The notes under the pieces: generated by a model | The model's input: the letters and a program-made list of their open reading frames with translations, nothing else | Told to the model about the DNA's origin: nothing | Database searches by the model: none | Translations under genes and position numbers: made by a program | DNA from: an uncultured Lachnospiraceae bacterium | GTDB taxonomy: Bacteria > Bacillota > Clostridia > Lachnospirales > Lachnospiraceae | Direction: 5' to 3' | Assembly (NCBI GenBank): GCA_947629865.1 | Contig: CANRFJ010000003.1 | Span: 62,001-126,000, forward strand | DNA length: 64,000 bases | Shown here: piece by piece, positions 4,416 to 37,215 of the stretch | Numbering within the stretch: position 1 is the stretch's first letter | Layout of the letters: every line of letters starts with the position of its first letter

Positions 4416-6206
4416 TCACGCACCGTTCTGGCTGTCCAACAGCTGCTCAAATTCGCTCATCGGCATCGGCTTGGCATACAGATATCCCTGCGCCATATCA
4501 CAGCGGATATTTCGCAGATAATCGGCCTGGGACTCCGTCTCCACTCCCTCGCACACCACCATCTTATCCAGTTCCCTTGTCAGTTCCACCGTCTTGCGGA
4601 TAATGATCTTACTCTTGTCTGACGTCTCCGTCTCGTCTAAGAACGACTTGTCTATCTTAATGATATCGACCGGCAGATCCTTCAGAAGATTCAGGGAAGA
4701 ATACCCCGTGCCAAAATCGTCGATCGACCACCGGATTCCCAGCTCCTTCAGGCTTTTCATCATCTGCGCCATCTCGGACAGATTATCCTTAAATATGCGC
4801 TCTGTCAGCTCCAGTTCAATATATTTTGCCGGCGTGTGGTGCTTTGCCAGCACCGACGCGATCTGATTTACATAGTCCTTGTCTCCCAGCAGCACCCTGG
4901 ACTGGTTGATGGATACGGAGACGCAGTTCTTTTTCTCGTTCAGCCGCTTCTGGATCATCTTGCACACTTCGTCCAGCATATAAAAATCCAGATTGACGAT
5001 AAACCCGTTTTTCTCAAATACCGGAATAAATTCGTCCGGGTACACCATCGTCCCGTCCCGCCGGATCCAGCGGCACAGCGCCTCTGCACCCACGATCCTT
5101 CCGTCCTCCAGACCGTATTTAGGCTGAAGATACACCTTGAACTCACCGTTGTCCAAAGCCTCCTTCATACTCCGCTCAATCTTCTTTACCTTCTCCATTT
5201 TGTGGAACACTTCAATGTCAAAAAAGGCCGCCCTGAATTTGTTGTCATACCGGAGGCTCTTGCGCGCCACATTGGCGCACTCCACCATCTTCCCGATGTC
5301 GGAGGACGTATCTGTGATCAGATAGACGCCAAATCCAAGACCGGGCGCGGCCTCGGAGTAGTCCGGAGCAATATTTTTTTCAAACTCCCCGCTCAGATTT
5401 TTCAGCAGGAGCTTCAGTTTTGTCACTTCCGTATAGGAGACGAGCAGGACAAAATGGTCGGCCACGCTGCGGCAGCACAATTTGACCGTCTTGCTGCATG
5501 TGGTGAGCAGATTTGCCATGTCCACGAGAAGTTTGTCCGCTCTCTTGAGGCCGTACAGGTTGTTAATCTGCTCATAGTGGTCTATATCCGTGCAGAGCAG
5601 GGCATACTTTGAATCCTTTCCTCTCTCGTCCAGGAACAGGCGGGCCTCACTCTTAAATGCATCCAGCGTATAAACTCCCGTCAGGATATCATAGGCATTG
5701 GAATTTTTCATATCCTCCACCATGTGAAGAAACGGTGGGCCGTCTTTTTCCATGCCCGCCGTCCGGTTTGTATCCTCGCCGGTGGAGAGAGAAGTGTGTA
5801 CCGATACAATCACATATCCGCTCTCGTTATGCAGGAGAATCATGGAATAGCGCAGATTTGAATAGAGAATCTGCGTGCGGTAGAGAAGCCTCAGCTCCAG
5901 TTCCCCCGTCACGTCGTAGCAGCCCGCCCCCAGCGCTGCCGCCTCCGACGCCACTACCTTCAGCACACAGTCATAGGGAATCTGCTGAAGTTCCTTGTCG
6001 AGAAAGCGCTCCATCTCCTCCTTGTTGTGTGCGACAAAATATTCCTTTGTCCCGATCCAGTGCACGTCATCGCTGACATTTTGCAGAGTGCTCTGCAAAT
6101 CATGCCGGACATAAAATGAGTGAAAAAAATCCAAAGCAATCTGCTTAACCTGTTCCCCTGCCATATCGCTGTCCAGCATCTGCTGCCCTTCCGGGTATAC
6201 CGCCAT
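4416..6206 (-). CDS. Degenerate GGDEF plus EAL protein with N-terminal SnoaL-like domain
   Basis: The 596-residue soluble protein has three parts. Residues about 15-140 look like a SnoaL/NTF2-type sensory domain. Residues about 165-335 are a GGDEF fold whose signature is replaced by SVADHF (247-252), so cyclase activity is unlikely. Residues about 345-590 are an EAL domain with the signature intact (EAL at 375-377), ELELTE, DDFGTGYSSL, KIDKSF, EGVET and QGYLYAKPMP. It probably hydrolyses cyclic di-GMP, with the GGDEF part possibly regulatory. No membrane segment is visible. It follows the metallo-hydrolase gene by 54 bases on the same strand; the ribosome site is GAGGAGGGG. Confidence 0.88.
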   Translation of the reverse strand: MAVYPEGQQMLDSDMAGEQVKQIALDFFHSFYVRHDLQSTLQNVSDDVHWIGTKEYFVAHNKEEMERFLDKELQQIPYDCVLKVVASEAAALGAGCYDVTGELELRLLYRTQILYSNLRYSMILLHNESGYVIVSVHTSLSTGEDTNRTAGMEKDGPPFLHMVEDMKNSNAYDILTGVYTLDAFKSEARLFLDERGKDSKYALLCTDIDHYEQINNLYGLKRADKLLVDMANLLTTCSKTVKLCCRSVADHFVLLVSYTEVTKLKLLLKNLSGEFEKNIAPDYSEAAPGLGFGVYLITDTSSDIGKMVECANVARKSLRYDNKFRAAFFDIEVFHKMEKVKKIERSMKEALDNGEFKVYLQPKYGLEDGRIVGAEALCRWIRRDGTMVYPDEFIPVFEKNGFIVNLDFYMLDEVCKMIQKRLNEKKNCVSVSINQSRVLLGDKDYVNQIASVLAKHHTPAKYIELELTERIFKDNLSEMAQMMKSLKELGIRWSIDDFGTGYSSLNLLKDLPVDIIKIDKSFLDETETSDKSKIIIRKTVELTRELDKMVVCEGVETESQADYLRNIRCDMAQGYLYAKPMPMSEFEQLLDSQNGA

Positions 6207-23528: not shown

Positions 23529-25262
23529 TCAGCTCCACTGGGCCTCAAAGAGGCGGCGGTAAAAACCGTTCTGCGCGAGCAAACTCTCGTGATTTCCCTG
23601 CTCGATAATCTTCCCGTCCTTCATCACAAGAATCACGTCCGCCTCACGGATTGTTGAGAGGCGGTGGGCCACAATAAAACTGGTGCGCCCCCTCATCAGC
23701 CGGGCAAACGCCTGCTGGATATCCATCTCGGTGCGGGTGTCTATGGAGGAAGTGGCCTCGTCCAGTATCAGCATCGGAGGCAGACAGAGCATTACCCTGG
23801 CAATGCAGAGAAGCTGCTTCTGCCCCTCGGACAGGCTTCCTCCGTCCTCACCGAGCACCGTATCATACCCGTCCCGCAGACGCCTGATGAAACCGTGGGC
23901 ATGACTGGCTTTCGCCGCCTCCCTGATTTCTTCATCTGTGGCGTCCGGCCGTCCCATAGCGATATTTTCCCGAATCGTCCCGTTCTTCAGCCATGTCTCC
24001 TGCAATACCATGCCGTAATTTTTCCGCAGGCTCTCCCTGGTAATTTTGCGGATATCATGGCCGGACACGGAGATTTTACCGCTGTCCACATCATAAAAGC
24101 GCATGAGCAGATTGATCAGAGTGGTCTTGCCGCAGCCGGTGGGCCCCACAATGGCGACGCGCTGGCCCGGAACCACATGGAGGTTAAAATCCTCAATCAG
24201 TCTCTGGGAGGGCTCATAGGCAAAAAATACGTCCTCGATATCCACGGCGCCATCTGCCTCCCTCAGTTCCACCGCGTCCGGCGGCTCCGCCGGTTCCGGC
24301 TCCTCGCCAATCAGCTCAAGCACCCGACCGGCACAGGCGATTGCATTCTGAAGCTCTGCCACCACGCCGGAAATCTCATTAAACGGCCGCGTGTACTGGT
24401 TCGCATAACTCAGGAAGCAGGAGAGCATACCCACGGTAATGCCGCCGCGGACGGCATAAACGGCGCCGAAGATGCCCACGCCTGCATAGACCAGGCTGTT
24501 GACAAAACGGGTGGCCGGATTGGTGATGGAGGAGAAAAAAGTACCCCGCAGGGAATATTTCCGCAGCTTCTCATTGATCTCGTCAAACTCCTCCAGCGCC
24601 TCCCTCTCATGGCCGAATGACTGGACAACCCTCTGATTGCCAATCATCTCCTCCACAAATGCCGTCTGATCCCCCCTGGCCTCCGACTGTAGCCGGAACA
24701 TCTGATAGGTGCGTCTGGCTATAAAGGCGGCCACAAACAGAGATACCGGCGTCACCACGACCACGACAGCGGTGATTGGCAGGCTGACGCTGAGCATAAA
24801 TCCCAGTGTGCCGAGGATCGTGATCACTCCTGTAAAAAGCTCTGTAAATCCCATCAAAAGGCCGTCCGCAAAGGAATCCGCATCTGCGATCACCCGACTC
24901 ACCACATCACCGTGGGAATGGCTGTCAATGTAGCTGAGCGGCAATTCGCCCAGACGGGAAAAAGCGTCCGCCCTCACGTCACGCACCACTCCATAGGTAA
25001 TCCGGTTATTGCATACATTCATAATCCACTGGGCCGCCGCGGTCAGGGCAATGGCAATCCCGATTTTCCCACAGATTGCCGTCACCGCGGTGAAATCCAC
25101 CGCCCCCGGCGCCACGATCACATCTACCGCCCGGCCGGTGAGTACGGGCACATAAAGAGTGAGCGCCACAGACGCCACTGCCAGCAGAAGCGACGCCGCC
25201 AGATAAAGCCAGTAATGCCTTATATAGCGCAATACCTTCCTGATGATCTCCCTCTGGCTCAT
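23529..25262 (-). CDS. ABC exporter half-transporter, canonical Walker B glutamate but LSEGQ signature
   Basis: A 577-residue fused permease-ATPase: six membrane segments (about residues 15-300) and an ATPase with Walker A GPTGCGKT, signature SLSEGQKQ, Walker B MLILDEATSSID and H-loop AHR. It overlaps the upstream half-transporter by four bases (ATGA). That partner has lost catalytic residues, so the two should form an asymmetric heterodimer such as TM287/288 or BmrCD, which expel drugs or lipids. The noncanonical signature in this subunit fits the degenerate-site arrangement. The substrate is unknown. Confidence 0.92.
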   Translation of the reverse strand: MSQREIIRKVLRYIRHYWLYLAASLLLAVASVALTLYVPVLTGRAVDVIVAPGAVDFTAVTAICGKIGIAIALTAAAQWIMNVCNNRITYGVVRDVRADAFSRLGELPLSYIDSHSHGDVVSRVIADADSFADGLLMGFTELFTGVITILGTLGFMLSVSLPITAVVVVVTPVSLFVAAFIARRTYQMFRLQSEARGDQTAFVEEMIGNQRVVQSFGHEREALEEFDEINEKLRKYSLRGTFFSSITNPATRFVNSLVYAGVGIFGAVYAVRGGITVGMLSCFLSYANQYTRPFNEISGVVAELQNAIACAGRVLELIGEEPEPAEPPDAVELREADGAVDIEDVFFAYEPSQRLIEDFNLHVVPGQRVAIVGPTGCGKTTLINLLMRFYDVDSGKISVSGHDIRKITRESLRKNYGMVLQETWLKNGTIRENIAMGRPDATDEEIREAAKASHAHGFIRRLRDGYDTVLGEDGGSLSEGQKQLLCIARVMLCLPPMLILDEATSSIDTRTEMDIQQAFARLMRGRTSFIVAHRLSTIREADVILVMKDGKIIEQGNHESLLAQNGFYRRLFEAQWS

Positions 25263-27013
25263 GTCTCCTCCTTTCCGGAAACCCTGCAGATCTCGCGGTA
25301 CACCCCGCAGGTCTCACGCAGTTTATCATGATTGCCGAGCCCGACGATCCGGCCGTCCTCCAGCACCACGATCCGGTCTGTATTCCGCACGGAAGCCGCG
25401 CGCTGCGACACGATAAACAGAGTCATGTCCGTCAATTCCTCCCGGATAGCCCTCCTGAGCGCCGCGTCCGTGGCATAGTCGAGAGCCGAGGCGCTGTCGT
25501 CCAGAATCAGAATTTCCGGCCGTCTCACAATCGCCCTGGCAATGGCGAGCCTCTGCCTCTGTCCGCCGGAGAAATTCCGCCCCTCCTGCTCCACTCTCTC
25601 GTCCAGGCCGTCCCTTTTGCCCCGCACAAACTCCTCCGCCTGGGCTATGCGCAGCGCCCGCCACATCTCCTCCTCCGTGGCGTCCTTTTTTCCCCAGAGC
25701 AGATTGCTCCGGACAGTTCCCTTAAAGAGGACGGATTTTTGCAGGACGATCCCCACCTTCTTTCTCAGTTCCTCCGCATCGTAATCTCCCACCTCCCGGC
25801 CGTCTATGAGAAGCCGACCGGAGGTAACGCCATAAAAGCCCGGCAGAAGATGCACCAGGGAAGTCTTGCCGGAGCCGGTGCCCCCGATGATCCCGATGCT
25901 TTCTCCCCGCTCTGCGGAGAAATCAATGTCCGTCAGCGATTCCTCCGAGGAACCCGGATAGGTAAATCCCACATGCTCAAACACCACCGCTTTTTCCGTC
26001 CGTGCGCTGGAAGCGGCGAATCTCTCCCCGCTCTCCGCCCGTCCGGTTCCGCCGACAGGCGCGGCCAGCCCCGGCTCCCTCTCGAAGATCTCCTGGATCC
26101 GGTCGCCGCAGGCCACCGCCTTATTCACGCTGACGATCAGATTCGCCAGCTTCACCAGTTCCACCAGTATCTGGGACATGTAATTGATGAGAGCCACCAC
26201 CTCGCCCTGTGTCAGCGCCCCTGCGTTGACCTGGACGGCGCCCGTGTAGATGAGGGCGATCACCGCCCCGTTGAGAATCAGATATGTGATTGGATTCATC
26301 AGCGCCGCAATACGTCCGACCGCCTGCTGGAGACGGTTGAGTTCCCCGTTCTCTCCGGTGAACTTCTCCCTCTCCTCCCCCTGTTTGTGAAAGGTCCTCA
26401 GCACCCTGGCGCCGGCGAGGTTTTCCCTGGTTCTCCCAAGCAGCCTGTCCAGCGCCTGCTGCACCTTCTTGTAGCGCGGTATGCTCGCCGCCATCACGCC
26501 GAACACCACCGCCGACAAAAGCGGAATAGCCACCACAAAGATGAGCGCCGCCTTCACGTCCACGGTAAATGCCATGACCATGGCGCCGAATACAATAAAC
26601 GGAGAGCGCAGAAAAAGACGCAGAACCAGATTCACACCATTCTGCACCTGGCCCGCGTCGCTGGTTATCCTTGTAATCATAGTCGAGGCGCCGAGTTCGT
26701 CCATATCGGCAAAGGAAAACTTCTGTATGTGGGCAAACAACTCCCTTTTCATTCCGGCGCAAAAGCCAACCGCTGCTTTTGCCGCAAAATACTGGGCTGT
26801 CAGCGAGGCGGCCAGCCCCACTGCGGCCAGAAGCACCAGGAGAGCGCCCATCCTTCCGATACAGGCATAGTCTCTCCCTGCGATTCCCACGTCGATGATC
26901 TCTGCCATCACCAGCGGGACAAACAGTTCAAAGGAGGCCTCCAGCAATTTAAACAGAGGCGCCAGTATACTCTCTTTTTTGTATTCCCTCAAAAACCGCA
27001 GTAACTTTTTCAA
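25259..27013 (-). CDS. ABC exporter half-transporter with degenerate ATP site
   Basis: A 584-residue fused permease-ATPase. The permease covers about residues 15-310; the ATPase has Walker A GGTGSGKT and signature NFSGGQ, but Walker B reads ILILDDSASALD (Asp in place of the catalytic Glu) and the H-loop is SQR instead of SHR. These changes are typical of the non-hydrolysing site partner in heterodimeric exporters. The start is a TTG with AAAGGG seven bases upstream. It precedes, and overlaps, its likely partner at 23529-25262. Confidence 0.92.
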   Translation of the reverse strand: MKKLLRFLREYKKESILAPLFKLLEASFELFVPLVMAEIIDVGIAGRDYACIGRMGALLVLLAAVGLAASLTAQYFAAKAAVGFCAGMKRELFAHIQKFSFADMDELGASTMITRITSDAGQVQNGVNLVLRLFLRSPFIVFGAMVMAFTVDVKAALIFVVAIPLLSAVVFGVMAASIPRYKKVQQALDRLLGRTRENLAGARVLRTFHKQGEEREKFTGENGELNRLQQAVGRIAALMNPITYLILNGAVIALIYTGAVQVNAGALTQGEVVALINYMSQILVELVKLANLIVSVNKAVACGDRIQEIFEREPGLAAPVGGTGRAESGERFAASSARTEKAVVFEHVGFTYPGSSEESLTDIDFSAERGESIGIIGGTGSGKTSLVHLLPGFYGVTSGRLLIDGREVGDYDAEELRKKVGIVLQKSVLFKGTVRSNLLWGKKDATEEEMWRALRIAQAEEFVRGKRDGLDERVEQEGRNFSGGQRQRLAIARAIVRRPEILILDDSASALDYATDAALRRAIREELTDMTLFIVSQRAASVRNTDRIVVLEDGRIVGLGNHDKLRETCGVYREICRVSGKEET

Positions 27014-27043: not shown

Positions 27044-29224
27044 TCAGCTTCCCTGCATCTCCAGCTGCGCCTTCACCAGACGGCTGTAGATGCCGCCCTT
27101 TGCGATCAGCTCCTCATGGGAGCCCACCTCCGCGATCCGGTGTCCGTCAATGACAATAAGGCGGTCGGCATTTTGCAGGGTGGAGAGGCGGTGGGCAATG
27201 GCAAACGTAGTCCGCCCGTCCGTGAGTCGCTCCAGCGCCTTCTGAATCATAAACTCGCTCTCCGTATCCAGACTGGCTGTGGCCTCGTCGAGGATCAGAA
27301 GCCTCGGCTCATTCAGTATAGCCCTTGCAATGGCGATCCGCTGCCTCTCTCCTCCGGAGAGGGTATACCCCTTCTCACCGACATAGGTATTGTACCCATC
27401 CGGCGTCTTTGATATGAATTCGTGGGCATTCGCCATCTTGGCCGCCCGAATCACCTCCTCATAGGTGGCGTCCGGACGGGAGAACCGGATATTATTGAGA
27501 ATGGTTCCCGTGAACAAAAACGTCTCCTGCAGCACCACACCGATCTGGGAGTGGAATTTATCCGAGCGTATCTCCTTAATGTCGTGCCCGTCTACCAGAA
27601 GGCTGCCGTCGTCTACTTCATACAGGCGCATAATGAGGTTGATCAGGGTGGACTTTCCTGTTCCGGACGCCCCCACAATCCCTATCATCTCTCCCTTGCG
27701 TATCCTGAAATTCAGATCCTCCAATACCGGCTGGTAGGACTTGTAGCCGAACGTAGCATGGGAAAACTCAATCTCCCCCTGCACTTCCAGCTCCACCGGC
27801 CTCTCCACATCTTCGATAAATATATCCTGAGCCAGCACATCATTGATTCTCTCAATGCTGCTGATGAGGTTCATCAGATCCCTCGGCATCGACGTCATCC
27901 AGTTGAGGTACTGGTACAGAAGCTGCGTGTAGGTGATAAACTGAATCAGTTCTCCCGTAGTCATGGCGCCACCAAACACGTCCAGACCGCCAAAGTAGAT
28001 GACGAGAAATACACCGGCTCCCATTATCAGGCTGATAAAGGGGTTAAACACTGCCCAGAACACCTCGTTTCTCGTCTGCACGCGGCAGAACTCCTGCGCC
28101 AGGGCATTGAATTTTTCCTTCTCATCCTCCTCCTTACCGTAGGATTTTACCACCCGCATACCCGATATGACGTCCTGCAGGTTGCTGTTTACATCATCGC
28201 TCTTTTTCCACTGCAGATGAAACCGTCTGTGAATACTCTTGCGGAAGGCATAGGTAAAAATCACCGCCAGCGGCACAAAGATAAAACTGAGCAGCGCCAG
28301 TTTTACATTCAGGAGCAGCATAAAAATAATATCGCAGACAAAAATAAAGCAGACCGTAAACATATTACAGAATGTTCTCTGCATAAAATCACGGATTTTC
28401 CCCGTGTCAAAGGCGATCCGGTTCATCAGTTCGCCCGGCCGCCTGTCGTTGATAAAATTCAGCGAGAGAATCTGCACCTTCTCAAACAGCTCCCGCCGCA
28501 GGTCTTTGGAAATCGTGGCCCCCAGCACCGTACAGTAGTAACTTTTGAGTACATTGATTACCACGATGCCCGCGCTGAGCAGAAACATGATGCCCAGGCA
28601 CAAAAAAGCCACTCCCATGCCGCCCTCTCCCGAAGTGAGCACATCATCTACCAGGTGCTTTTGCACCTCCGGATTCAAAAGAGTCACCACGGCGGCCAGT
28701 ATCATCAGTATGATAATGCCGGTAAAGCTCTTTTTGTAGGGCGCCGACATGCGGAGAAAATTCCGCCAGAAGCCCCCCTCTTTTGAACAGTGCGGACAGT
28801 ATCTCGTGCCCGGAATGGCGCGCCCGCACTGGGGACATATCTTCTCATATTCCCCGCTTGACACCTCCTCGGTGCGTCCGCTTATCAATATATTGATTCC
28901 CCTGGCTACATAGGCATAGCGGGACAGGTGCCTGGCCGAATAGTGTACCAGATAGCGCTCGGTGCCCCTGTGGCGCAAAGTCAGAATACCTCCTCCGATC
29001 TTTGCCTCCGCCTTTACCTGTTCGCAGTCCGATATGCCGATTTTTTCCAGCACCTCTCCCCGACAGATCTTCCAGATATGTCGGGTGCCCACGATCAGAT
29101 AGGCGTCCTGAAGCCAGGCGCCCCCCTCGTCGATGTCATAGGGAACGGCGTAATAGATCCGTTCGTCCTCCTCCAGATCAAGACAGGCCTCTGTCTGCTC
29201 CGGCAGTTCATATTTCAGTATCAT
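27044..29224 (-). CDS. ABC exporter with N-terminal PH-like domain and zinc ribbon
   Basis: The 726-residue protein has an unusual N-terminal extension: a beta-rich, PH-like region (about residues 1-120) and a zinc ribbon CPQCGRAIPGTRYCPHC (about 130-146). A standard exporter permease and an intact ATPase follow (Walker A GASGTGKS, LSGGERQR, LLILDEATASLD, AHR). It is separated from the similarly built exporter at 29815-32148 only by the DUF1854 gene, so the three products probably work together. NCBI-style annotation links DUF1854 and such ABC proteins to cyanophycin metabolism; no cyanophycin gene is seen here. Confidence 0.9.
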   Translation of the reverse strand: MILKYELPEQTEACLDLEEDERIYYAVPYDIDEGGAWLQDAYLIVGTRHIWKICRGEVLEKIGISDCEQVKAEAKIGGGILTLRHRGTERYLVHYSARHLSRYAYVARGINILISGRTEEVSSGEYEKICPQCGRAIPGTRYCPHCSKEGGFWRNFLRMSAPYKKSFTGIIILMILAAVVTLLNPEVQKHLVDDVLTSGEGGMGVAFLCLGIMFLLSAGIVVINVLKSYYCTVLGATISKDLRRELFEKVQILSLNFINDRRPGELMNRIAFDTGKIRDFMQRTFCNMFTVCFIFVCDIIFMLLLNVKLALLSFIFVPLAVIFTYAFRKSIHRRFHLQWKKSDDVNSNLQDVISGMRVVKSYGKEEDEKEKFNALAQEFCRVQTRNEVFWAVFNPFISLIMGAGVFLVIYFGGLDVFGGAMTTGELIQFITYTQLLYQYLNWMTSMPRDLMNLISSIERINDVLAQDIFIEDVERPVELEVQGEIEFSHATFGYKSYQPVLEDLNFRIRKGEMIGIVGASGTGKSTLINLIMRLYEVDDGSLLVDGHDIKEIRSDKFHSQIGVVLQETFLFTGTILNNIRFSRPDATYEEVIRAAKMANAHEFISKTPDGYNTYVGEKGYTLSGGERQRIAIARAILNEPRLLILDEATASLDTESEFMIQKALERLTDGRTTFAIAHRLSTLQNADRLIVIDGHRIAEVGSHEELIAKGGIYSRLVKAQLEMQGS

Positions 29225-29250
29225 AGATAACCTCCATTCCCATCGTTCGT

Positions 29251-29793
29251 CTACAGGAATAAATCCAGTTTGCGCTGCTCCTTCTGGCTCAGTTCAAACA
29301 CGTCCGGTATCTCAAAACGGTTCTCGTCCAGATCTGTGATCAGCAGCCGGCTGTCCGTCAGGCGCACCACCGCATTGGCTCCCATATTGATGGTAAAACG
29401 GCACTCGCCCCTGTCCGTCATCACATGAAAATACGCATAGCCGTACTCGTCCTTAATATCTATTATCTTCTCAATGATAGGCGTGAAATAGTGAAGGTTC
29501 AGCTGTTCCTCCAAAAGCTTTCTGGTCTCCACGGAGACCTGCGCCAGATCGGCGATCACGCCAATTTCCTTCGAGCGCTCATCTACCGTGCGCAGGGAGA
29601 TATACTTATCCGGTTCGGTAAAGGGAAACAGCCGGATAACCTGTACCCTCTCCCATACCCTGCCGTCATATTCCAGACGCACAAAGCCTCCCTCGGTACG
29701 GATAAACGAGGCGTTCTCCTCCGTCAGATAGTGAAGCGCCGTCATCTCCTCCGTCTCCTTCTCCATCTCACTCATCGTAATATTTTCTTCCAT
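29251..29793 (-). CDS. DUF1854 family protein
   Basis: A 180-residue soluble protein matching the DUF1854 pattern: an N-terminal strand region (EGGFVRLEYDGR), a central GVIADLAQVSVETRKLLEEQ, and the end DVFELSQKEQRKLDLFL. DUF1854 proteins are typically encoded next to ABC exporters and may modulate them. The ATG at 29793 has GGAGG five bases upstream and is preferred to one four codons earlier. It sits between the two zinc-ribbon exporter genes with gaps of 21 and 26 bases, so all three form an operon. Confidence 0.85.
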   Translation of the reverse strand: MEENITMSEMEKETEEMTALHYLTEENASFIRTEGGFVRLEYDGRVWERVQVIRLFPFTEPDKYISLRTVDERSKEIGVIADLAQVSVETRKLLEEQLNLHYFTPIIEKIIDIKDEYGYAYFHVMTDRGECRFTINMGANAVVRLTDSRLLITDLDENRFEIPDVFELSQKEQRKLDLFL

Positions 29794-29814
29794 GGTTCCC
29801 TCCATTTCTATCTG

Positions 29815-32148
29815 TCATTCCAGTCCCTTCAGGGCCAGGGATTTTGTCTGCAATTCCATCAGTTTATAATAGATGCCCCGGAGAGCCTCCAGTTCGCTGT
29901 GGGTTCCCTCCTCGACAATCTTTCCGTTATCAATCACCACCAGACGGTCGGCGTCTCTCAGCGTGGATAGACGGTGGGCAATCGACAGTGTCGTGCGCCC
30001 CTTCACAAGGTAATTCAGCGAGCTCTGGATCGCCTTCTCCGTCTCGGTGTCCACACTGGCCGTCGCCTCGTCCAGAATCAGAATCTTCGGATTGGCAAGC
30101 ACCGCCCTGGCAATGGATATCCGCTGCTTTTCACCTCCGGACAGATCCTTGCCCGAAGCTCCGATCACCGTGTCGTAGCCGTCCGGCATATTGGCGATAA
30201 ATTCGTGGGCGCTGGCCAGTATGGCCGCCTGAATGATATCCTCCCTCGTGGCCTCCGGATTGGCGTACGCAATATTCTCCGCGACCGTCCCCATAAAGAT
30301 ATAAGTATCCTGGGACACCATCGCCACATTTCTCCGCAAATCCCTGAAGGCCAGGTTTTTCACGTCTTCCCCGTCGATGGAGATACTTCCCTCGTCCACG
30401 TCGTATAGCCTTGAGATCAGATTGACAAGCGTGGTCTTTCCCGCGCCCGAACGCCCTACGATCCCCAGCATCTCTCCCTCCTTCACATGAAGGCTTATGT
30501 CCTTCAGGACAGGATTATTTATATCGTAACCAAATGTCACATGCTGCAAATCAATCTCGCCCCGCGGCTCTTTCATCTCCACGGGATTCTCGATCTCCTG
30601 GATATCCGGCACCGCATCCATAATCTCAAACATGCGCTGCGCCGCATTGATGCTGTCAGACCACATGTGGAATACCTGGGAGAAAAAGTTCATCGGCCCG
30701 TTCAGCTGCGCCACATATCCCACAAAGGTGATCAGCACACCCAGCTCGATGCTTCCGGTATTCAGAAGGAGTATAACTCCCAGTATCCACACCCAGATAT
30801 TCGATATCTCCTGCACCAGGTTATACAGTACCGTAAAGCGGTTATTGTACTTAACAATGCGGATTTCCGCCTCCTGCAGCCGCTCGTTGACCGGCTCAAA
30901 CCGGTGGTTCTCCTGTCCCTGCTGCCCAAATGCCTTCACCACCCGCGCCCCGGTCAGATTGTCGTTGACGCGGCTGTTCAGCGTGCGCTCGGCCCGGTGC
31001 CTGCGCCCGAACAGGCTCCACAGCTTCGGCTTTAATTTCACACTCATAAATACAAGAAACGGCAGAAGCACGCAGGCCACCAGCGCCATGCGCCAGTTCA
31101 GCCGGAACATCACAACAAACGAGGCGATGATCGTAAAGGCGTGGACAAATATATACGGAAATCCGTCCAGGAAAAATCCAGTCACCCGATCCGCGTCGCT
31201 GAGCACCCTGGTCATCAGGCTTCCCGTCTGCTTACTGGTAAAAAAGTGAATGGAGAGCCGCCCCATGGAGGAAAAGACGTCCTGCTTCATATCGCGCACC
31301 GTGGCGGCCACCACCCGCGCCATCAGGGTTCCCTGCAATATGCTCACCCCCTGCTGGACGCACTTGGACAGCAGAATCGCCGACACTAACAGCGCCAGCG
31401 CCAGAACGTATCTCCCCTCAAGTCCGAAGGAGGCCAGCCAGGCATCGTCCTTCACCAGAACCCTATCGTACAGCACCGTACCGCTCAGGTACGGCCACAC
31501 CAGATTCAGTCCCGCCGCCGCAAAGTAGCACAGAAACAGCGTGATGAACTGCACGCGGTATCGGAAGAAATACCGCAGTGTCCTCACAAAAATCGAGCGC
31601 TTGTTCATGCACTTCGGGCATATCTTCCGCTTCGGATCCGGATACATCGTACCGCAGACCGGACAGTACTCCGCCTTCTCCTCCTGAATATCCGCCGAGG
31701 CCTCCACCTCCTCCGCCGCATCCGGATACTTCTTGAGTTTCTTATAGCTTTTCATAAACAGATTCATCTGTTCCAGATACAGATTGGTAAGCGCCGCCAC
31801 CCGCATGGGAGCGCCCTTATAATCTATCACCACCAGATTCGTAGCAACCTGGCGCTCGATCTTCATGTGCGCCGTCTCCGCCAGCGGGAGCAGACGGCAT
31901 GTGTATTCGAGCGTGTCCTCGCCATAATTCATATCCTTCGTCTTCGTCCCCCGGAAATACCGCACGCGGTTCCCGATCGGCTCGCTGGTTACGATCCCCA
32001 GCATCTCCCCTGTCAGAAACAGATAGCCGCTTATGTATTCCCCCTCAAAGGACAAATCGGCCGGACAGACGTCCAGAATGTCCTCCTTTTTTATCCCCTG
32101 CGCCTTCAACTGCGCGAGAACCCTTGCCGGGAGCTGGTTATCCTTCAT
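29815..32148 (-). CDS. ABC exporter with long N-terminal extension and zinc ribbon; first structural gene of the attenuated operon
   Basis: The 777-residue protein has a beta-rich N-terminal domain (about 1-150), a zinc ribbon CPVCGTMYPDPKRKICPKC (about 180-198), a six-helix permease and a complete ATPase (GRSGAGKT, DLSGGEKQ, ILILDEATASVD, AHR). It is probably the partner of the exporter at 27044-29224. The ATG at 32148 has AAAGGGG ten bases ahead; a start 27 codons earlier would lie inside the terminator and is rejected. Expression appears controlled by a TetR-type operator, a leader peptide and a terminator just upstream. Confidence 0.9.
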   Translation of the reverse strand: MKDNQLPARVLAQLKAQGIKKEDILDVCPADLSFEGEYISGYLFLTGEMLGIVTSEPIGNRVRYFRGTKTKDMNYGEDTLEYTCRLLPLAETAHMKIERQVATNLVVIDYKGAPMRVAALTNLYLEQMNLFMKSYKKLKKYPDAAEEVEASADIQEEKAEYCPVCGTMYPDPKRKICPKCMNKRSIFVRTLRYFFRYRVQFITLFLCYFAAAGLNLVWPYLSGTVLYDRVLVKDDAWLASFGLEGRYVLALALLVSAILLSKCVQQGVSILQGTLMARVVAATVRDMKQDVFSSMGRLSIHFFTSKQTGSLMTRVLSDADRVTGFFLDGFPYIFVHAFTIIASFVVMFRLNWRMALVACVLLPFLVFMSVKLKPKLWSLFGRRHRAERTLNSRVNDNLTGARVVKAFGQQGQENHRFEPVNERLQEAEIRIVKYNNRFTVLYNLVQEISNIWVWILGVILLLNTGSIELGVLITFVGYVAQLNGPMNFFSQVFHMWSDSINAAQRMFEIMDAVPDIQEIENPVEMKEPRGEIDLQHVTFGYDINNPVLKDISLHVKEGEMLGIVGRSGAGKTTLVNLISRLYDVDEGSISIDGEDVKNLAFRDLRRNVAMVSQDTYIFMGTVAENIAYANPEATREDIIQAAILASAHEFIANMPDGYDTVIGASGKDLSGGEKQRISIARAVLANPKILILDEATASVDTETEKAIQSSLNYLVKGRTTLSIAHRLSTLRDADRLVVIDNGKIVEEGTHSELEALRGIYYKLMELQTKSLALKGLE

Positions 32149-32186: not shown

Positions 32187-32220
32187 AAAAAAAGTACCTC
32201 TGAATATCTATCAGAAGTAC
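32187..32220 (-). terminator. Attenuator terminator of the ABC exporter operon
   Basis: On the minus strand a 10-pair stem (32220-32211 with 32203-32194; one G-U pair) with a 7-base loop is followed by seven Us (32193-32187). It lies between the leader ORF and the first exporter gene, 39 bases ahead of its ATG. Its 5' arm can pair instead with a segment in the leader ORF, so it is probably a regulated terminator rather than the end of a gene. Confidence 0.82.
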
Positions 32221-32292
32221 CCACTCCATGTCTCACAAAAAGCGCTCTCATCTTCCCTGCGGCGGCATGAACAATATGTAACCTTCTGATAG
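32208..32292 (-). promoter_or_regulatory. Antiterminator pairing that competes with the attenuator
   Basis: The segment CTATCAGAAG inside the leader ORF (32292-32283, minus strand) is perfectly complementary over 10 bases to CTTCTGATAG at 32217-32208. The latter holds seven of the ten bases of the terminator 5' arm, so the two structures exclude each other. Ribosome stalling early in the leader ORF would leave the upstream arm free and favour read-through. Confidence 0.72.
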
Positions 32293-32331
32293 TATGTGCG
32301 TATCTGTATATGTCTTAGTCAAAATTTTCAT
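32248..32331 (-). CDS. Leader peptide of 27 residues ahead of the ABC exporter operon
   Basis: A short ORF begins at the ATG at 32331, with AAAGGTGG eight bases upstream, and ends at a TGA at 32248. The peptide begins MKILTKTYTDTHILSEGYI and ends FMPPQGR. Codons 14-17 form one arm of the antiterminator. The setting (drug-exporter operon, leader ORF, mutually exclusive hairpins) is like bmrB ahead of bmrCD in Bacillus subtilis, where antibiotics that slow ribosomes induce the exporter. The peptide sequence itself is not one I know, and function is inferred from layout only. Confidence 0.68.
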   Translation of the reverse strand: MKILTKTYTDTHILSEGYILFMPPQGR

Positions 32332-32363: not shown

Positions 32364-32392
32364 ATTATAGCGAAAGAAATTCCATATGTCAA
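32364..32392 (-). promoter_or_regulatory. Consensus promoter of the ABC exporter operon
   Basis: On the minus strand TTGACA (32392-32387), a 17-base spacer and TATAAT (32369-32364) match the sigma-A consensus exactly. The -35 box lies inside a perfect palindrome. The predicted start is about 25 bases ahead of the leader ORF. Confidence 0.85.
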
Positions 32393-32403
32393 TATGGAAT
32401 TTC
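32376..32403. promoter_or_regulatory. Perfect 12+12 palindrome overlapping the -35 box: probable TetR operator
   Basis: GAAATTCCATAT (32376-32387) is followed by four bases and its exact reverse complement ATATGGAATTTC (32392-32403). It covers the -35 box of a consensus promoter, and the tetR gene ends 46 bases away. Size and position fit a TetR-family operator that blocks RNA polymerase. Confidence 0.72.
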
Positions 32404-32448: not shown

Positions 32449-33057
32449 TTATTCCGAAACCTCCATGCGCCGGATAATGTCCCGCACCACTCCATAGAGT
32501 TCCGGTTTCAGCACCTCCAGAGAGACCGGCTCCTCCATGAGAATCACATTGTGGCAGGTGGCGTTGATCAGTTCCACAATCATATACAGCATAAGGTCGG
32601 GATTCCGGAACGTCCGCCCAGACTCCTCCAGGAGCGCGCGGTACACGTCATAGAAGCGGTAGCCCCCACTGTCCTCCGCCTCGGACACCAGCATGTGCCG
32701 GAACACTCCCCAGCTGAGGTTGCGGGAGATAAAGCGAAGCACAATGGGATTTTTCTGAAAGTGATTGACAATAAAATCCGCCAGGAAAATTACCTTGTCC
32801 TCCAGCTCCGGCAACTGTCTCCCCGCCATCTGTTCCCACGCCTTCCGGAACAGTCCGGACGCCTCGTGGACGATGAGCTTGTCCCGCAAATCGTACTTAT
32901 CCTTGAAATACAGGTAAAAAGTTCCCTTCGCCATACCGGCTTCCCTTACGATGTCCGATATGGAAGTCTCCTGGATTCCCTTTGTGGTAAAGAGGGAAAA
33001 CGCTGCGTTTAACAGCGCCTCCCTCTTTTGTTTTTTCTTCTCGTCCAGTTTGCCCAC
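32449..33057 (-). CDS. TetR/AcrR family transcriptional regulator
   Basis: The 202-residue protein has the N-terminal TetR helix-turn-helix (AFSLFTTKGIQETSISDIV, then AGMAKGTFYLYFKDKYDL, about residues 18-60) and a helical ligand-binding domain. The start is a GTG with AGGGGG eight bases upstream. It is the third gene after the MMPL pump and YhgE-like genes, so it is probably cotranscribed with them. It likely represses its own operon and the ABC exporter promoter just downstream, where palindromes lie at 37304-37326 and 32376-32403. Confidence 0.92.
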   Translation of the reverse strand: MGKLDEKKKQKREALLNAAFSLFTTKGIQETSISDIVREAGMAKGTFYLYFKDKYDLRDKLIVHEASGLFRKAWEQMAGRQLPELEDKVIFLADFIVNHFQKNPIVLRFISRNLSWGVFRHMLVSEAEDSGGYRFYDVYRALLEESGRTFRNPDLMLYMIVELINATCHNVILMEEPVSLEVLKPELYGVVRDIIRRMEVSE

Positions 33058-33069
33058 GGCAACAGCCCC

Positions 33070-35076
33070 CTAGTCCTCTTTCTCCAGCGCTTCCGTCTCG
33101 ATGATGAACTTCACATCACCCTTCATTCCACTGCCGATTCCGCTGAAGCTGTCATACTTTTTACCCGCTTCAATCACTGCGTCCAGACGGTCTAACAGGC
33201 TCTTGATATCCTCCTCGTATACACTCTCCAGTTTGCTCACGCCCTCATTCCTGAATTTACTCATTCCCGAAGCCAGCTTTCCTGCGCCCTTATCCAGCTT
33301 GCCGCTGGCCTCTGACAGTTTGGAGACGCCGGACACCAGTGTGTCTGTGGCCTTATTTAAATCCTTCCCGCCCTTTTTCAGTGTCTTCATTCCTGTATTC
33401 AGTTTCTTTGTCTGCTTCTTCATGGTTTTGCTGGCCTTTTTCAGTTTCTTTGCACCGTCCGTGAGCGTCTTATTATTCTTTACCAGCTTATCGCCGCCCT
33501 CTTTCAGTGTCTTTATGCTGGCAACCAAATTAGGCATCTGGGTTTTCAAGGTCTTCGAGCCCCCCGTCAGGCTGGCGGAGCTTCCGGCCAGTGTACTCAG
33601 TCCGTCCATAACGGTATTTACCCCTCCTGCCAGAGTAACCGCTCCCTTCTTCAGATCTCCAGAATCCGAAGTGGCTGTCTCCATCTGTTCAATAGCCGCT
33701 TTCTGGCCGGCCGTCACCTGCTCCAGACTGGCAATCAGCGTCGCATCTGCCCCGGCCGCCTTCAATCCGGCAATAATCTTCTCATTCTGTGCAAAAGTAG
33801 CCTTCAGCTGCGTCAGGTTCGCATTTAAGGAAGCTACACCGTCGGAAACGGCCTTCGCCCCTCCCTTTAGCGCCGTGACATTTTCCTTTTGTCCCAGCTT
33901 ATCCACTCCGTCCGTATAGGTCTTCAGTCCCTTGTCAAACGTGTTGATCTGGGCGGGAAGGCCTTTCACCGCCTCGTACAGGTCGCTGTTTCCATCGGCA
34001 ATCTGTCCGGCCCCCTTCACATAGGCGCTCACGCCGTCCGCCATCTCCGTCACGCCGTCCGCATATTCCTTCACTCCTTTTACGAGTGCAGGGCCGTTTG
34101 CAGCCAGGGTGGAGATCCCCTTCGTGAGCTTTTTCACACCGTCTTTGCGGTAAGTCTTTATCTTCTTGTCGAGTGTTCCCATCTTCCCCTCAAAGAGCTC
34201 CATATTGTCCGAGAGGGTATCCGTACCGTCCACCAGCGTGGCCGCGGCGTCTGTCAGATCGGAGAGTCGCTCCTCCACCTCGTCCCGGCTGCCTATCTTG
34301 TTCAATTTCAACTCGTTTAACAGACTGGGGCTTGCATAGGTGAACGTATTCCCCATGGAAAAATCTGTCACCTGGGCTGTCACCGTAAATTCGCTGTGTA
34401 TCTTCTTCGCATACTTTTCCTCCAGCGACAGGCTCTCTGCCAGGCCCGGCGTGCCCACTCCCACTACAATCTGGTTGGAGCCGTCGTTGATTAGACGGCC
34501 GTTGTCCACCTTTACCTGGGAGAATTTGTCATTGGGGAGAATCATTCCCGTAATCAGCACAAACGGCGTATAAACCGTTTTCTTCTTCCCATGGACTGTC
34601 ACCGTCTGGCGGGATTTGTTCGTGTAGGACACATGAATCTTTACCTCTCCGCTCTTTCCGGGCAGTTCGGCCGCCGGTATCTCCTTCCCGTCCAGCGAGT
34701 AAGTGACCGACACCTCCACCGGAAGCTCCTCCGAGGACTTTCCCTGATAATAGATGTCGTCGCCGGAAGTGTTCCAGTTCAGCGCCCCGCCCGACTGGGT
34801 AAAGCTCTCCTTCCCCTTTACATTGGTAATATCCGTCAGATTGGATTTGTCATTTACCGTTCCGGAGACCATTCCGGAATTTTTCAGCCAGTCCGCCACT
34901 GTAATCTTCTGTACCGAACCGTCGGCCGCCGCATTGACGTAGACCGACTCCTCTTTGCTTATCTTCTTTGCACTGGCATACGGACAACTTCCGAGAACCA
35001 GCGCTGAGACTAACGCCGCGCTGAGCGCCGTTTTCCCGATTCTCTTTACTCTTATTCCTCTCATTCCTGCTTTCAT
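33070..35076 (-). CDS. Secreted YhgE/Pip-like protein with heptad (coiled-coil) repeats
   Basis: The 668-residue protein has a signal peptide (about 1-36), a beta-rich domain (about 40-270) and then a long alpha-helical region of heptads with repeated LxxG patterns (KLDKGAGKLASGMSKF and similar), typical of YhgE/Pip-like proteins that accompany MMPL pumps. It lacks the YhgE C-terminal membrane domain. The ATG at 35076 has GGAGG five bases upstream. Placed between an MMPL pump and tetR, it is probably an accessory of the pump in the envelope. Confidence 0.8.
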   Translation of the reverse strand: MKAGMRGIRVKRIGKTALSAALVSALVLGSCPYASAKKISKEESVYVNAAADGSVQKITVADWLKNSGMVSGTVNDKSNLTDITNVKGKESFTQSGGALNWNTSGDDIYYQGKSSEELPVEVSVTYSLDGKEIPAAELPGKSGEVKIHVSYTNKSRQTVTVHGKKKTVYTPFVLITGMILPNDKFSQVKVDNGRLINDGSNQIVVGVGTPGLAESLSLEEKYAKKIHSEFTVTAQVTDFSMGNTFTYASPSLLNELKLNKIGSRDEVEERLSDLTDAAATLVDGTDTLSDNMELFEGKMGTLDKKIKTYRKDGVKKLTKGISTLAANGPALVKGVKEYADGVTEMADGVSAYVKGAGQIADGNSDLYEAVKGLPAQINTFDKGLKTYTDGVDKLGQKENVTALKGGAKAVSDGVASLNANLTQLKATFAQNEKIIAGLKAAGADATLIASLEQVTAGQKAAIEQMETATSDSGDLKKGAVTLAGGVNTVMDGLSTLAGSSASLTGGSKTLKTQMPNLVASIKTLKEGGDKLVKNNKTLTDGAKKLKKASKTMKKQTKKLNTGMKTLKKGGKDLNKATDTLVSGVSKLSEASGKLDKGAGKLASGMSKFRNEGVSKLESVYEEDIKSLLDRLDAVIEAGKKYDSFSGIGSGMKGDVKFIIETEALEKED

Positions 35077-35136
35077 TTTAACCTCCATTCCGGAGCGCTT
35101 TGCGCGCTTCTGTTGCGGGGCACGATGCCCGTCTGC

Positions 35137-37215
35137 TCAGTAATCTATTTTTCTCATATCCCATGTCGTCCGGCATATAATGCGGTCAAATACAGTCAGC
35201 ATAGCCGGCAGGATCAGAATTACTACCACCGTACTGATGACGGCTCCTCTGGCCAACAGCGTACAGATGGATTGAATCATGTCAATGCTGGAGGACATAG
35301 TCACTCCAAACGTGGCGGCGAAAAGGCACAGTCCGCTTGTAAGTATGGATTTTATAGACGTCCTGTGGGCAATGCCGATCGCCTCTTTCTTCGTCCTGTG
35401 CTCCAGCGTGCGCTCCTTGTGGTAGCGGCTTGTCATCAGAATCGCATAATCCACAGTGGCTCCCAGCTGAATCGTACCTATGACAATGCTCGCCACAAAG
35501 GGGAGCGACTCCCCGCTGAAAAACGGCACCGACATATTCAGGAAGATGGCAAATTCAATGACCGCCACCAGTATGATCGGTATGGAAACCGACTTAAATA
35601 CAAACAGGATAATGATAAAAATGGCCGCCACGGAAATGTAATTTACATTGGCGAGATCCACGTCCGTGACCTCCGCCAGATCCCTGGACAGAGGCGCCTC
35701 TCCAATAATCATGGATTCCGGACTGTATTTTTTCACAATGCCGTTGAGGGCGTCAATCTGCTTATTGGACTCTGTGGTGGCCGACCGGTAATCCGAGCAG
35801 ATAAACTGCAGTTCATAGTTATCGCCCTGCAGCATCTCACGGTACTCATCCGGCACCATCTCGTCCGGAAAATTCGCCCCCACGACGGAATTCATTCCAA
35901 GCACCCATTTAATCCCGTCCACCTTCTCAATCTCCTGCCGCATCGCTTCCTTGTCCTGATTTTTTATGCCGTTCTTCATCAGAAGGACATGCATACTGTT
36001 CATGTCAAACGTGTCCTGCAGTTTGTCATTGGCAACCGCCGAATCCAGTGTCTGTGGCAGGGAACGGGAAATATCGTAATAAATCTCGTAGTTCTTATTG
36101 CCATAGTAGGCCGGCCCGATCAGTACCACAAAGATGGCGAGCGCCACCGGCCACAGTTTTACGATCCAGCGGGACAGTCCGTTCATTTCCGGAAGGATAC
36201 TGCGGTGGGAAGTTTTCTCAATGGCCCCGTCAAACAGAAGAATCATCGCCGGAAGCAGGGTGATACAGGTAATGACGCCGATCACCACTCCCTTTGCCAT
36301 GACAAGGCCCAGATCCGTCCCCAGCCGGAATGTCATGAAACAGAGCGCCGCAAATCCGGCAATCGTAGTGACGGAACTGCCCGTCACAGACTTAAAGGTA
36401 TTAGCGATGGCATGTGCCATAGCCCGATTTTTATCCCCCTCAAACCGCTGCTTGTTCGCCCGGTAGCTGTCCAGCAGAAAAATGGAATAATCCATCGTGA
36501 CTCCCAGCTGCAGGATCGCCGTGAGCGCCTGTGTAATATAGGAAATCTCACCGAATATAATATTGCTTCCCATATTATAGAGGACGGCGGCTCCTATACC
36601 GGCCAGAAATATAAAGGGCGTTGCGAAGGAGTCCATTGTAAACATAAGGACAACCAGCGACAGCAAAACGGCCACTACCACATAAACCGGCATCTCAGAC
36701 AGCGCCAGATTTTTAATATCCGTGACAACGCCGGACATACCGCTGATAAACGCCTGCTTCTGCACGATTTCCCGCATCTGCGTCACGGCCTCCATCGTGG
36801 AGTCCGCCGAAGTCGTGTCGTCAAACAGCGCAATCATCATCGTGGCGTCGCCTCTGAAAAAGGCCTCTCGGAGTTTTTGGGGAATCATCTCCACCGGCAC
36901 GCTGATGTCGGTCAAGTCGTCATACCAGAGAATGTTCTCCACATGGTCAACCTCTTTCAGTTTGTTCTTTAGTTCCACGACGTCCCGGTTCTCCATATTT
37001 TCCACTATGACCATGGAAAATCCTCCCATGCCGAATTCATCTACCATGATGTCCTGACCGGACACGGTTTCCAGCGAGTCCGGAAGGTAGCTGAGCACAT
37101 CATAGTTGATCCGCGTCATGCTGTAACCGATGGCGGAGGGAATCAGCAGAAGAACTCCCACAATCAGAATCCAGATTTTGTGTCTGGCAATCCATTTTCC
37201 AAATTTAATTACCAT
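35137..37215 (-). CDS. MMPL/RND-family transporter
   Basis: The 692-residue protein has about twelve membrane segments in two similar halves, each with a large outside loop after the first segment (about residues 35-190 and 370-520). Motifs such as GVTMDYSIFLLDSYR and GATVDYAILMTSRYH are the MMPL signature in segment 4 of each half. Related proteins export lipids or drugs by proton motive force. It is the first gene of an operon with the YhgE-like gene and tetR. The start has GGAGTGAG upstream. Confidence 0.92.
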   Translation of the reverse strand: MVIKFGKWIARHKIWILIVGVLLLIPSAIGYSMTRINYDVLSYLPDSLETVSGQDIMVDEFGMGGFSMVIVENMENRDVVELKNKLKEVDHVENILWYDDLTDISVPVEMIPQKLREAFFRGDATMMIALFDDTTSADSTMEAVTQMREIVQKQAFISGMSGVVTDIKNLALSEMPVYVVVAVLLSLVVLMFTMDSFATPFIFLAGIGAAVLYNMGSNIIFGEISYITQALTAILQLGVTMDYSIFLLDSYRANKQRFEGDKNRAMAHAIANTFKSVTGSSVTTIAGFAALCFMTFRLGTDLGLVMAKGVVIGVITCITLLPAMILLFDGAIEKTSHRSILPEMNGLSRWIVKLWPVALAIFVVLIGPAYYGNKNYEIYYDISRSLPQTLDSAVANDKLQDTFDMNSMHVLLMKNGIKNQDKEAMRQEIEKVDGIKWVLGMNSVVGANFPDEMVPDEYREMLQGDNYELQFICSDYRSATTESNKQIDALNGIVKKYSPESMIIGEAPLSRDLAEVTDVDLANVNYISVAAIFIIILFVFKSVSIPIILVAVIEFAIFLNMSVPFFSGESLPFVASIVIGTIQLGATVDYAILMTSRYHKERTLEHRTKKEAIGIAHRTSIKSILTSGLCLFAATFGVTMSSSIDMIQSICTLLARGAVISTVVVILILPAMLTVFDRIICRTTWDMRKIDY

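Follow-up and report, generated by a model that had tools for sequence, protein, structure and literature searches.

This locus raises the question of how a short transcribed leader, carrying a small reading frame of its own, might decide whether the ABC exporter genes behind it are expressed. Few triggers are known for the inducible genes of uncultured gut Clostridia that serve export or drug modification, and a compact leader that is defined by its structure can be searched for; such a leader would mark ribosome-inhibitor-responsive genes even when their protein family points to no particular drug. The window (the whole 64,000-nucleotide stretch of DNA analysed here) had previously been described from its letters only, and this sequence-only reading proposed that a leader open reading frame (ORF), an intrinsic terminator, and a short complement between them form a possibly undescribed ribosome-mediated attenuator ahead of drug-type exporters. 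We followed up this proposal by comparing the leader with those of related genomes, by folding the leaders with ribosomes placed at different codons, and by weighing the result against other explanations and against known attenuators.

The leader and the operon behind it

Direct reading of the reverse strand, on which all of the genes and leader elements described below lie, bore out the 27-codon ORF plus TGA (32331-32248), which encodes MKILTKTYTDTHILSEGYILFMPPQGR, and its own ribosome-binding site (SD; AAAGGTGG, 32347-32340). Upstream is a TTGACA-17-TATAAT promoter with 12 of 12 consensus matches (-35 box at 32392-32387, -10 box at 32369-32364). The intrinsic terminator (32222-32187) begins 25 nt past the stop codon of the leader ORF and was likewise recovered, with a 12-pair stem at 32222-32192, where 32220-32194 had been given before, and a U7 tract at 32193-32187. 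A terminator scan of the window returned one terminator against 0.7 expected, which is weak evidence alone; the terminator of the leader is present again in relatives. The leader folds with z = -3.89, and 0 of 200 shuffles folded as well. At gathering score, Rfam release 15 gave 0 matches in the window and, among nine relative loci, a single tRNA distant from the leader; the leader is thus covered by no Rfam family.

The first ABC exporter gene (29815-32148) very probably starts at the ATG at 32148; the mechanical ORF list places its start at 32229, only seven bases ahead of the terminator stem, so that a frame from there would cross the terminator. A gene for a DUF1854 protein (PF08909; 29251-29805) is flanked by the first and the second ABC exporter genes (the latter at 27044-29224, from the ORF list and family searches), and a third (25259-27013) and a fourth (23529-25262) ABC exporter gene follow, with the two TM287/288 chains among their PDB sequence matches. 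The first and second ABC proteins are nearest to the NCBIfam CphA-associated (cyanophycin-associated) ABC exporter, at 549.8 and 521.3 bits and thus below its cut-off of 880, and none of the operon's exporters reaches the cut-off of a drug-exporter family among the best 25 families listed for each. By eye, the first and second ABC proteins (27044-32148) carry extra N-terminal domains with CxxC pairs that resemble zinc ribbons.

Upstream of the promoter is a gene for a TetR-type regulator (32449-33057; TetR_N), and a perfect 12-bp inverted repeat with a 4-bp centre, a putative TetR-type operator, covers the -35 box (32376-32403, without strand). These two features make a second layer of control likely, with the promoter probably also gated by a TetR-type repressor. 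Further upstream on the same strand, 33070-37215 encodes an RND/MMPL-like transporter and a large protein that is rich in repeats and looks secreted, both named by eye from their translations, which are perhaps under the same regulator as the operon. In a relative without the leader (L042, upstream of 6001), a different palindrome occupies the same promoter place, after the end of a TetR-like gene.

Alternative pairings in the leader and its relatives

In the minimum-energy fold of the window leader, the SD and start codon of the leader ORF (32344-32329) pair with codons 18-24 (32278-32261), forming a hairpin, hereafter hairpin A, that closes the SD. On comparative sequence evidence this is the best-supported element of the leader. 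RNAalifold predicted it unprompted from an alignment of nine species, in which 92.3% of its cells are paired and 4 of 13 pairs have changed on both sides, a count reached by 10 of 500 shuffles; among 15 aligned leaders, 94.4% of cells are paired and 7 of 12 pairs have changed on both sides (0 of 500 shuffles), with the qualification that the shuffles ignore the relatedness of the leaders. When the partner was displaced by 1 to 3 columns in the 15 leaders, only 25.6-50.0% of cells remained paired. In 14 of the 18 leaders tested, hairpin A exceeded every shuffled 3' arm, the exceptions being L033, L034, L092, and L037, in which it has fewer than 5 expected pairs in the ribosome-free calculation. 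The loop between its arms varies in sequence and length, and the alignment contains no conserved pocket.

The second pairing is the antiterminator. Codons 14-17 of the leader ORF (CTATCAGAAG, 32292-32283; region 1) are, as the sequence-only reading had it, the exact 10-base reverse complement of CTTCTGATAG (32217-32208; region 2) within the 5' side of the terminator, and the duplex between the ORF zone and the terminator 5' arm in the window reaches -15.1 kcal/mol, against -6.7 ± 1.8 for 500 shuffled versions of that zone (p = 0.002). In 14 of 18 leaders, the segment that separates the start codon from the hairpin A 3' arm pairs more strongly with the terminator 5' arm than its shuffles do (p < 0.05), while L049, L041, L037, and L098 miss this level; a 19th leader outside the 18, L114, gave p = 0.002. 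Over the 18 leaders, duplexes averaged -13.7 kcal/mol with the cognate terminator, -12.2 with non-cognate terminators of the same group, and -8.4 with those of other groups, and 12 of the 18 prefer their own terminator over every terminator of another group, where the leader groups and the terminator strings for the duplex and fold tests were picked by eye with the leaders already seen. The arms vary among leaders (CTATCAGAAG/CTTCTGATAG, CTGATAAAATCA/TGATTTTATCAG, CCGATAAAGTCG/CGATTTTGTCGG) and still pair, i.e., the pairing has been kept through changes on both sides.

None of the 18 leaders has a stop codon in the ORF before the end of the hairpin A 3' arm; for shuffled interiors, the chance of such an open frame is 0.09-0.51 each, giving a product of 4e-12 if the leaders were independent, which they are not. 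ORF lengths range from 16 to 45 codons, spanning both arms, with the stop 6-54 nt beyond the hairpin A 3' arm. Among leaders, that arm occurs in all three phases with respect to the ATG, so the peptide there is not conserved; given this, the place of the ribosome seems to count for more than any stalling peptide. The alignment of leaders from relatives thus sustained the expectation that the arms co-vary and went against that of conserved leader codons. The interpretation proposed earlier also stood in part: the layout of ORF, antiterminator arm, and terminator is conserved and co-varies in relatives, but the key competing structure, hairpin A, had not been listed. The conserved attenuator is real, and its mechanism appears well supported by comparison.

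Ribosome position, rival explanations, and known attenuators

For the window leader, we computed ensembles at the point where region 2 has been made and the terminator 3' arm has not. Without a ribosome, hairpin A formed with a probability of 0.94 and the antiterminator with 0.06 (0.82 and 0.18 with the loop added). A ribosome on the AUG raised the antiterminator to 0.97 and one at codon 5 to 0.98, a ribosome at codons 10, 14, or 20 reduced it to 0.00, and one waiting at the stop codon also favoured it (0.97). In the full-length RNA the terminator prevails whatever the ribosome state, which means that the decision has to be a kinetic one, as it is in other attenuators. Across the 18 leaders without a ribosome, at least 5 expected pairs were found for hairpin A in 14 and for the antiterminator in 5. 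The antiterminator reached this level in 18/18 with the start masked, although 372 of 720 shuffled interiors did so as well, and in 15/18 with the ribosome at codon 4, 1/18 with it over region 1, and 7/18 with it at the stop; with the start masked, at most 10% of the 40 shuffled interiors of each leader equalled the real antiterminator value. Hairpin A excludes the antiterminator in the predictions for the window leader and most others, though not for L033, L034, L092, and L037. The folds ignore pseudoknots, and the two elements could also form together as one pseudoknot.

We consider it likely that the leader is a ribosome-mediated transcription attenuator in which early ribosome arrest triggers read-through. 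In the absence of drug, the ribosome would clear the ORF and let hairpin A close as an anti-antiterminator, leaving codons 14-17 unused and the terminator free to stop RNA polymerase. A ribosome halted at the start codon or within the first few codons would cover the hairpin A 5' arm and keep the hairpin open, whereupon codons 14-17 would capture the emerging terminator 5' arm before the terminator closes, and transcription would proceed into the exporter genes. The trigger would most likely be a ribosome-targeting antibiotic that arrests early, and the exporters may, on this view, carry drugs and be reached by read-through under antibiotics. Conservation of the SD-closing fold in related species suggests that the pumps are switched on by ribosomes stuck at the beginning of the small leader ORF. 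The rule that this predicts, and offers to experiment, is that read-through would depend on whether the leader start codon is occupied.

Three other explanations account for parts of the same evidence. Threonine is enriched in codons 2-13 of the leaders (33 of 216; 1000 shuffles gave 15.4 ± 3.6, and none came as high), and the window leader has it at codons 5, 7, 9, and 11, as might an amino-acid attenuator in which scarcity of one charged tRNA, with threonine as the likeliest amino acid, would halt ribosomes soon after the ORF start and so let transcription pass the terminator. Against this, threonine is lacking in codons 2-13 of L041, L109, L102, and L103 (L092 has three and L037 one), and the genes downstream encode exporters, acetyltransferases, and a kinase rather than enzymes that make threonine. 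Moreover, phenicol-type drugs are reported to stall ribosomes after Ala, Ser, or Thr (PMC12121999), and such stalling would account for the threonines without a tRNA signal. The enrichment may fit either phenicol-type stalling or the sensing of threonine, and we treat it as a lead rather than a finding; as an explanation of the switch, we hold threonine scarcity to be highly improbable.

Co-varying alternative structures and a terminator would also be displayed by a riboswitch or a protein-bound leader, in which a bound molecule switches the folds and the ORF is incidental. We regard such a leader as very unlikely, given an ORF kept open through the 3' arm in every one of the 18 leaders, a hairpin A 5' arm made of the SD and start codon, a variable loop without a conserved pocket, and the lack of an Rfam match at gathering score. 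The perfect palindrome over the -35 box and the adjacent TetR-type gene would in turn fit a terminator that is a fixed brake, with control exerted solely at the promoter by a TetR-type repressor. By eye, however, the 70 bases upstream of L032, L033, L034, and L048 hold no such palindrome while the leader structure is kept, and a terminator that is a fixed brake has no need of alternative pairings that co-vary; we therefore give promoter-only control very little credence. Attenuation released by early ribosome arrest remains our preferred reading.

Several described systems resemble this arrangement, as far as the excerpts of their published accounts extend. In vmlR of Bacillus subtilis, arrest at the start of an upstream ORF (uORF) prevents an anti-antiterminator and the antiterminator forms (PMC9226507). 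It shares with the leaders a uORF, an anti-antiterminator (SL-1) opened by start arrest, and an intrinsic terminator that is bypassed, but its uORF has three codons (MIN) and lies in a bulge with its SD single-stranded before SL-1, an extra hairpin covers the SD of vmlR, and the target is an ABCF ribosome-protection factor and not an exporter (PMC9226507). The cplR leader of Clostridioides difficile, induced by retapamulin and lincomycin, is Clostridial as well, holds its uORF in a 5' hairpin, and has a terminator and an alternative antiterminator; it differs in its three-codon uORF (MRI), in a terminator stem that also hides the cplR SD, and in its ABCF target (PMC10201436). The bmrB-bmrCD system of B. 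subtilis, induced by lincomycin, erythromycin, and chloramphenicol, likewise has a leader ORF before a pair of ABC exporter genes together with an antiterminator and a terminator, but there the terminator lies inside the bmrB coding region, unlike that of the window leader, which lies past the ORF (PMC4191407). Its authors call the role of their anti-anti-terminator unclear, and the excerpts of this account describe no SD-closing hairpin (PMC4191407). In toiL-topAI of Escherichia coli, a uORF inside a repressive hairpin also senses start-codon arrest, but it controls topAI translation and Rho-dependent termination rather than an intrinsic terminator (PMC12121999). By analogy, the leaders appear to share the logic of vmlR and cplR; new would be the SD as a stem arm, an ORF of 16-45 codons laid over both arms, and the other target genes. 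A description of these leaders was not found in the excerpts returned from the open-licence PMC literature, where no paper had MPPQGR, none combined DUF1854 with ABC transporter, and none combined Lachnospiraceae with attenuator, leader peptide, and terminator.

Distribution and downstream genes

The relatives are placed in Lachnospiraceae. The first ABC protein was searched in 61 genomes, and a match of at least 66% identity was found in 18 genomes of the same genus (G000, G001, G003, G004, G014, G016, G017, G020, G023, G024, G027-G031, G033, G034, and G036). A covariance model of hairpin A (R1) matched 14 of these 18 (E ≤ 1.8e-7), eight of them by construction as members of its training set; the remaining four (G027, G028, G030, and G031) had no match at E 0.1. 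In the six newly matched genomes (G001, G004, G016, G017, G020, and G024), the leader stands ahead of an extra ABC gene. In five of them the first ABC gene follows on the same contig at a distance of some 4 kb; in G004, the leader and the first ABC gene are on different contigs. In the other 21 of the 39 genus genomes, two of which (G061 and G062) were outside the search for the first ABC gene, R1 matched only G025 (L098, before another ABC exporter) and G026 (L099, judged false). L041, on a contig not assigned to any of these genomes, is a further leader, and L093-L096, near copies of L092 and L037, were excluded from the 18 leaders. Of 37 loci taken from the 52 relative loci, 13 matched at E < 1e-6.

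Across 397 genomes of the family, R1 gave 6 matches and a broader model, R2, gave 12, of which 6 were kept on reading: the window's own, G036, G431 (L100), G184 (L102), G174 (L103), and G227 (L109), where L100, L102, and L103 match by construction because R2 was trained on them. R2 gave 8 matches in 391 genomes of the class, and 5 were kept (the window's own, G036, G751 with L112, G530 with L113, and G539 with L114); 2 of 21 genomes in the family of G530 matched. Searches over 40 genomes use stricter filters, so these counts are lower bounds. An exact pattern of the short type occurred in 1 of 392 genomes of the order, the already known G184, and in none of 249 genomes of the phylum and no viral contigs, and two leaders searched against plasmids gave no match. 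The exact pattern TTCAGAAG-gap-CTTCTGA matched 12 of the 39 genus genomes, none of these matches being a leader by coordinates, and was uninformative.

Several model matches were dropped by eye, L099, L105, L108, L110, L115, L116, and L117 as ordinary gene starts and L111 because such a leader was not seen there; L106 could not be judged, its contig stopping 28 bases past the match. L101 and L107, which are one place, have the SD hairpin, and a terminator was not seen; at L101 (1501-1581), the SD-closing hairpin and a small ORF precede a gene that is MgtE-like by eye, perhaps a separate case of control by a leader ORF. The loci L055, L062, and L063, with ABC identities of 62%, 52%, and 49%, look alike by eye and were left uncounted (E of 0.6, unlisted, and 0.67, respectively); at 5255-5331, 5724-5895, and 5721-5882 of these loci, the SD also pairs with the end of the ORF, the register being shifted, and more distant ABC relatives lie downstream.

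In other Clostridia, such leaders precede another ABC exporter, MFS transporters, GNAT acetyltransferases, and an APH-type kinase. ABC exporters follow L098 and L092; an MFS transporter follows L102, scoring 49 bits to MefA against a cut-off of 675 and so not a member of that family, and L103 is alike by eye; GNAT acetyltransferases follow L100, L112, L113, and L114, the last a good leader outside the 18-leader counts; and an APH-type kinase follows L109. We tentatively propose, with slightly less than even confidence, that these represent a Clostridial leader family whose own SD and start codon form an arm of the switch, so that start-codon occupancy would be read almost independently of the peptide, and which may repeatedly have brought exporters, MFS pumps, acetyltransferases, and kinases under the control of drugs that halt ribosomes at initiation or directly after it. 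In some species, repeat-like or hairpin-rich inserts lie between the terminator and the ABC gene (L033, 5755-6000; L040, 5618-6000).
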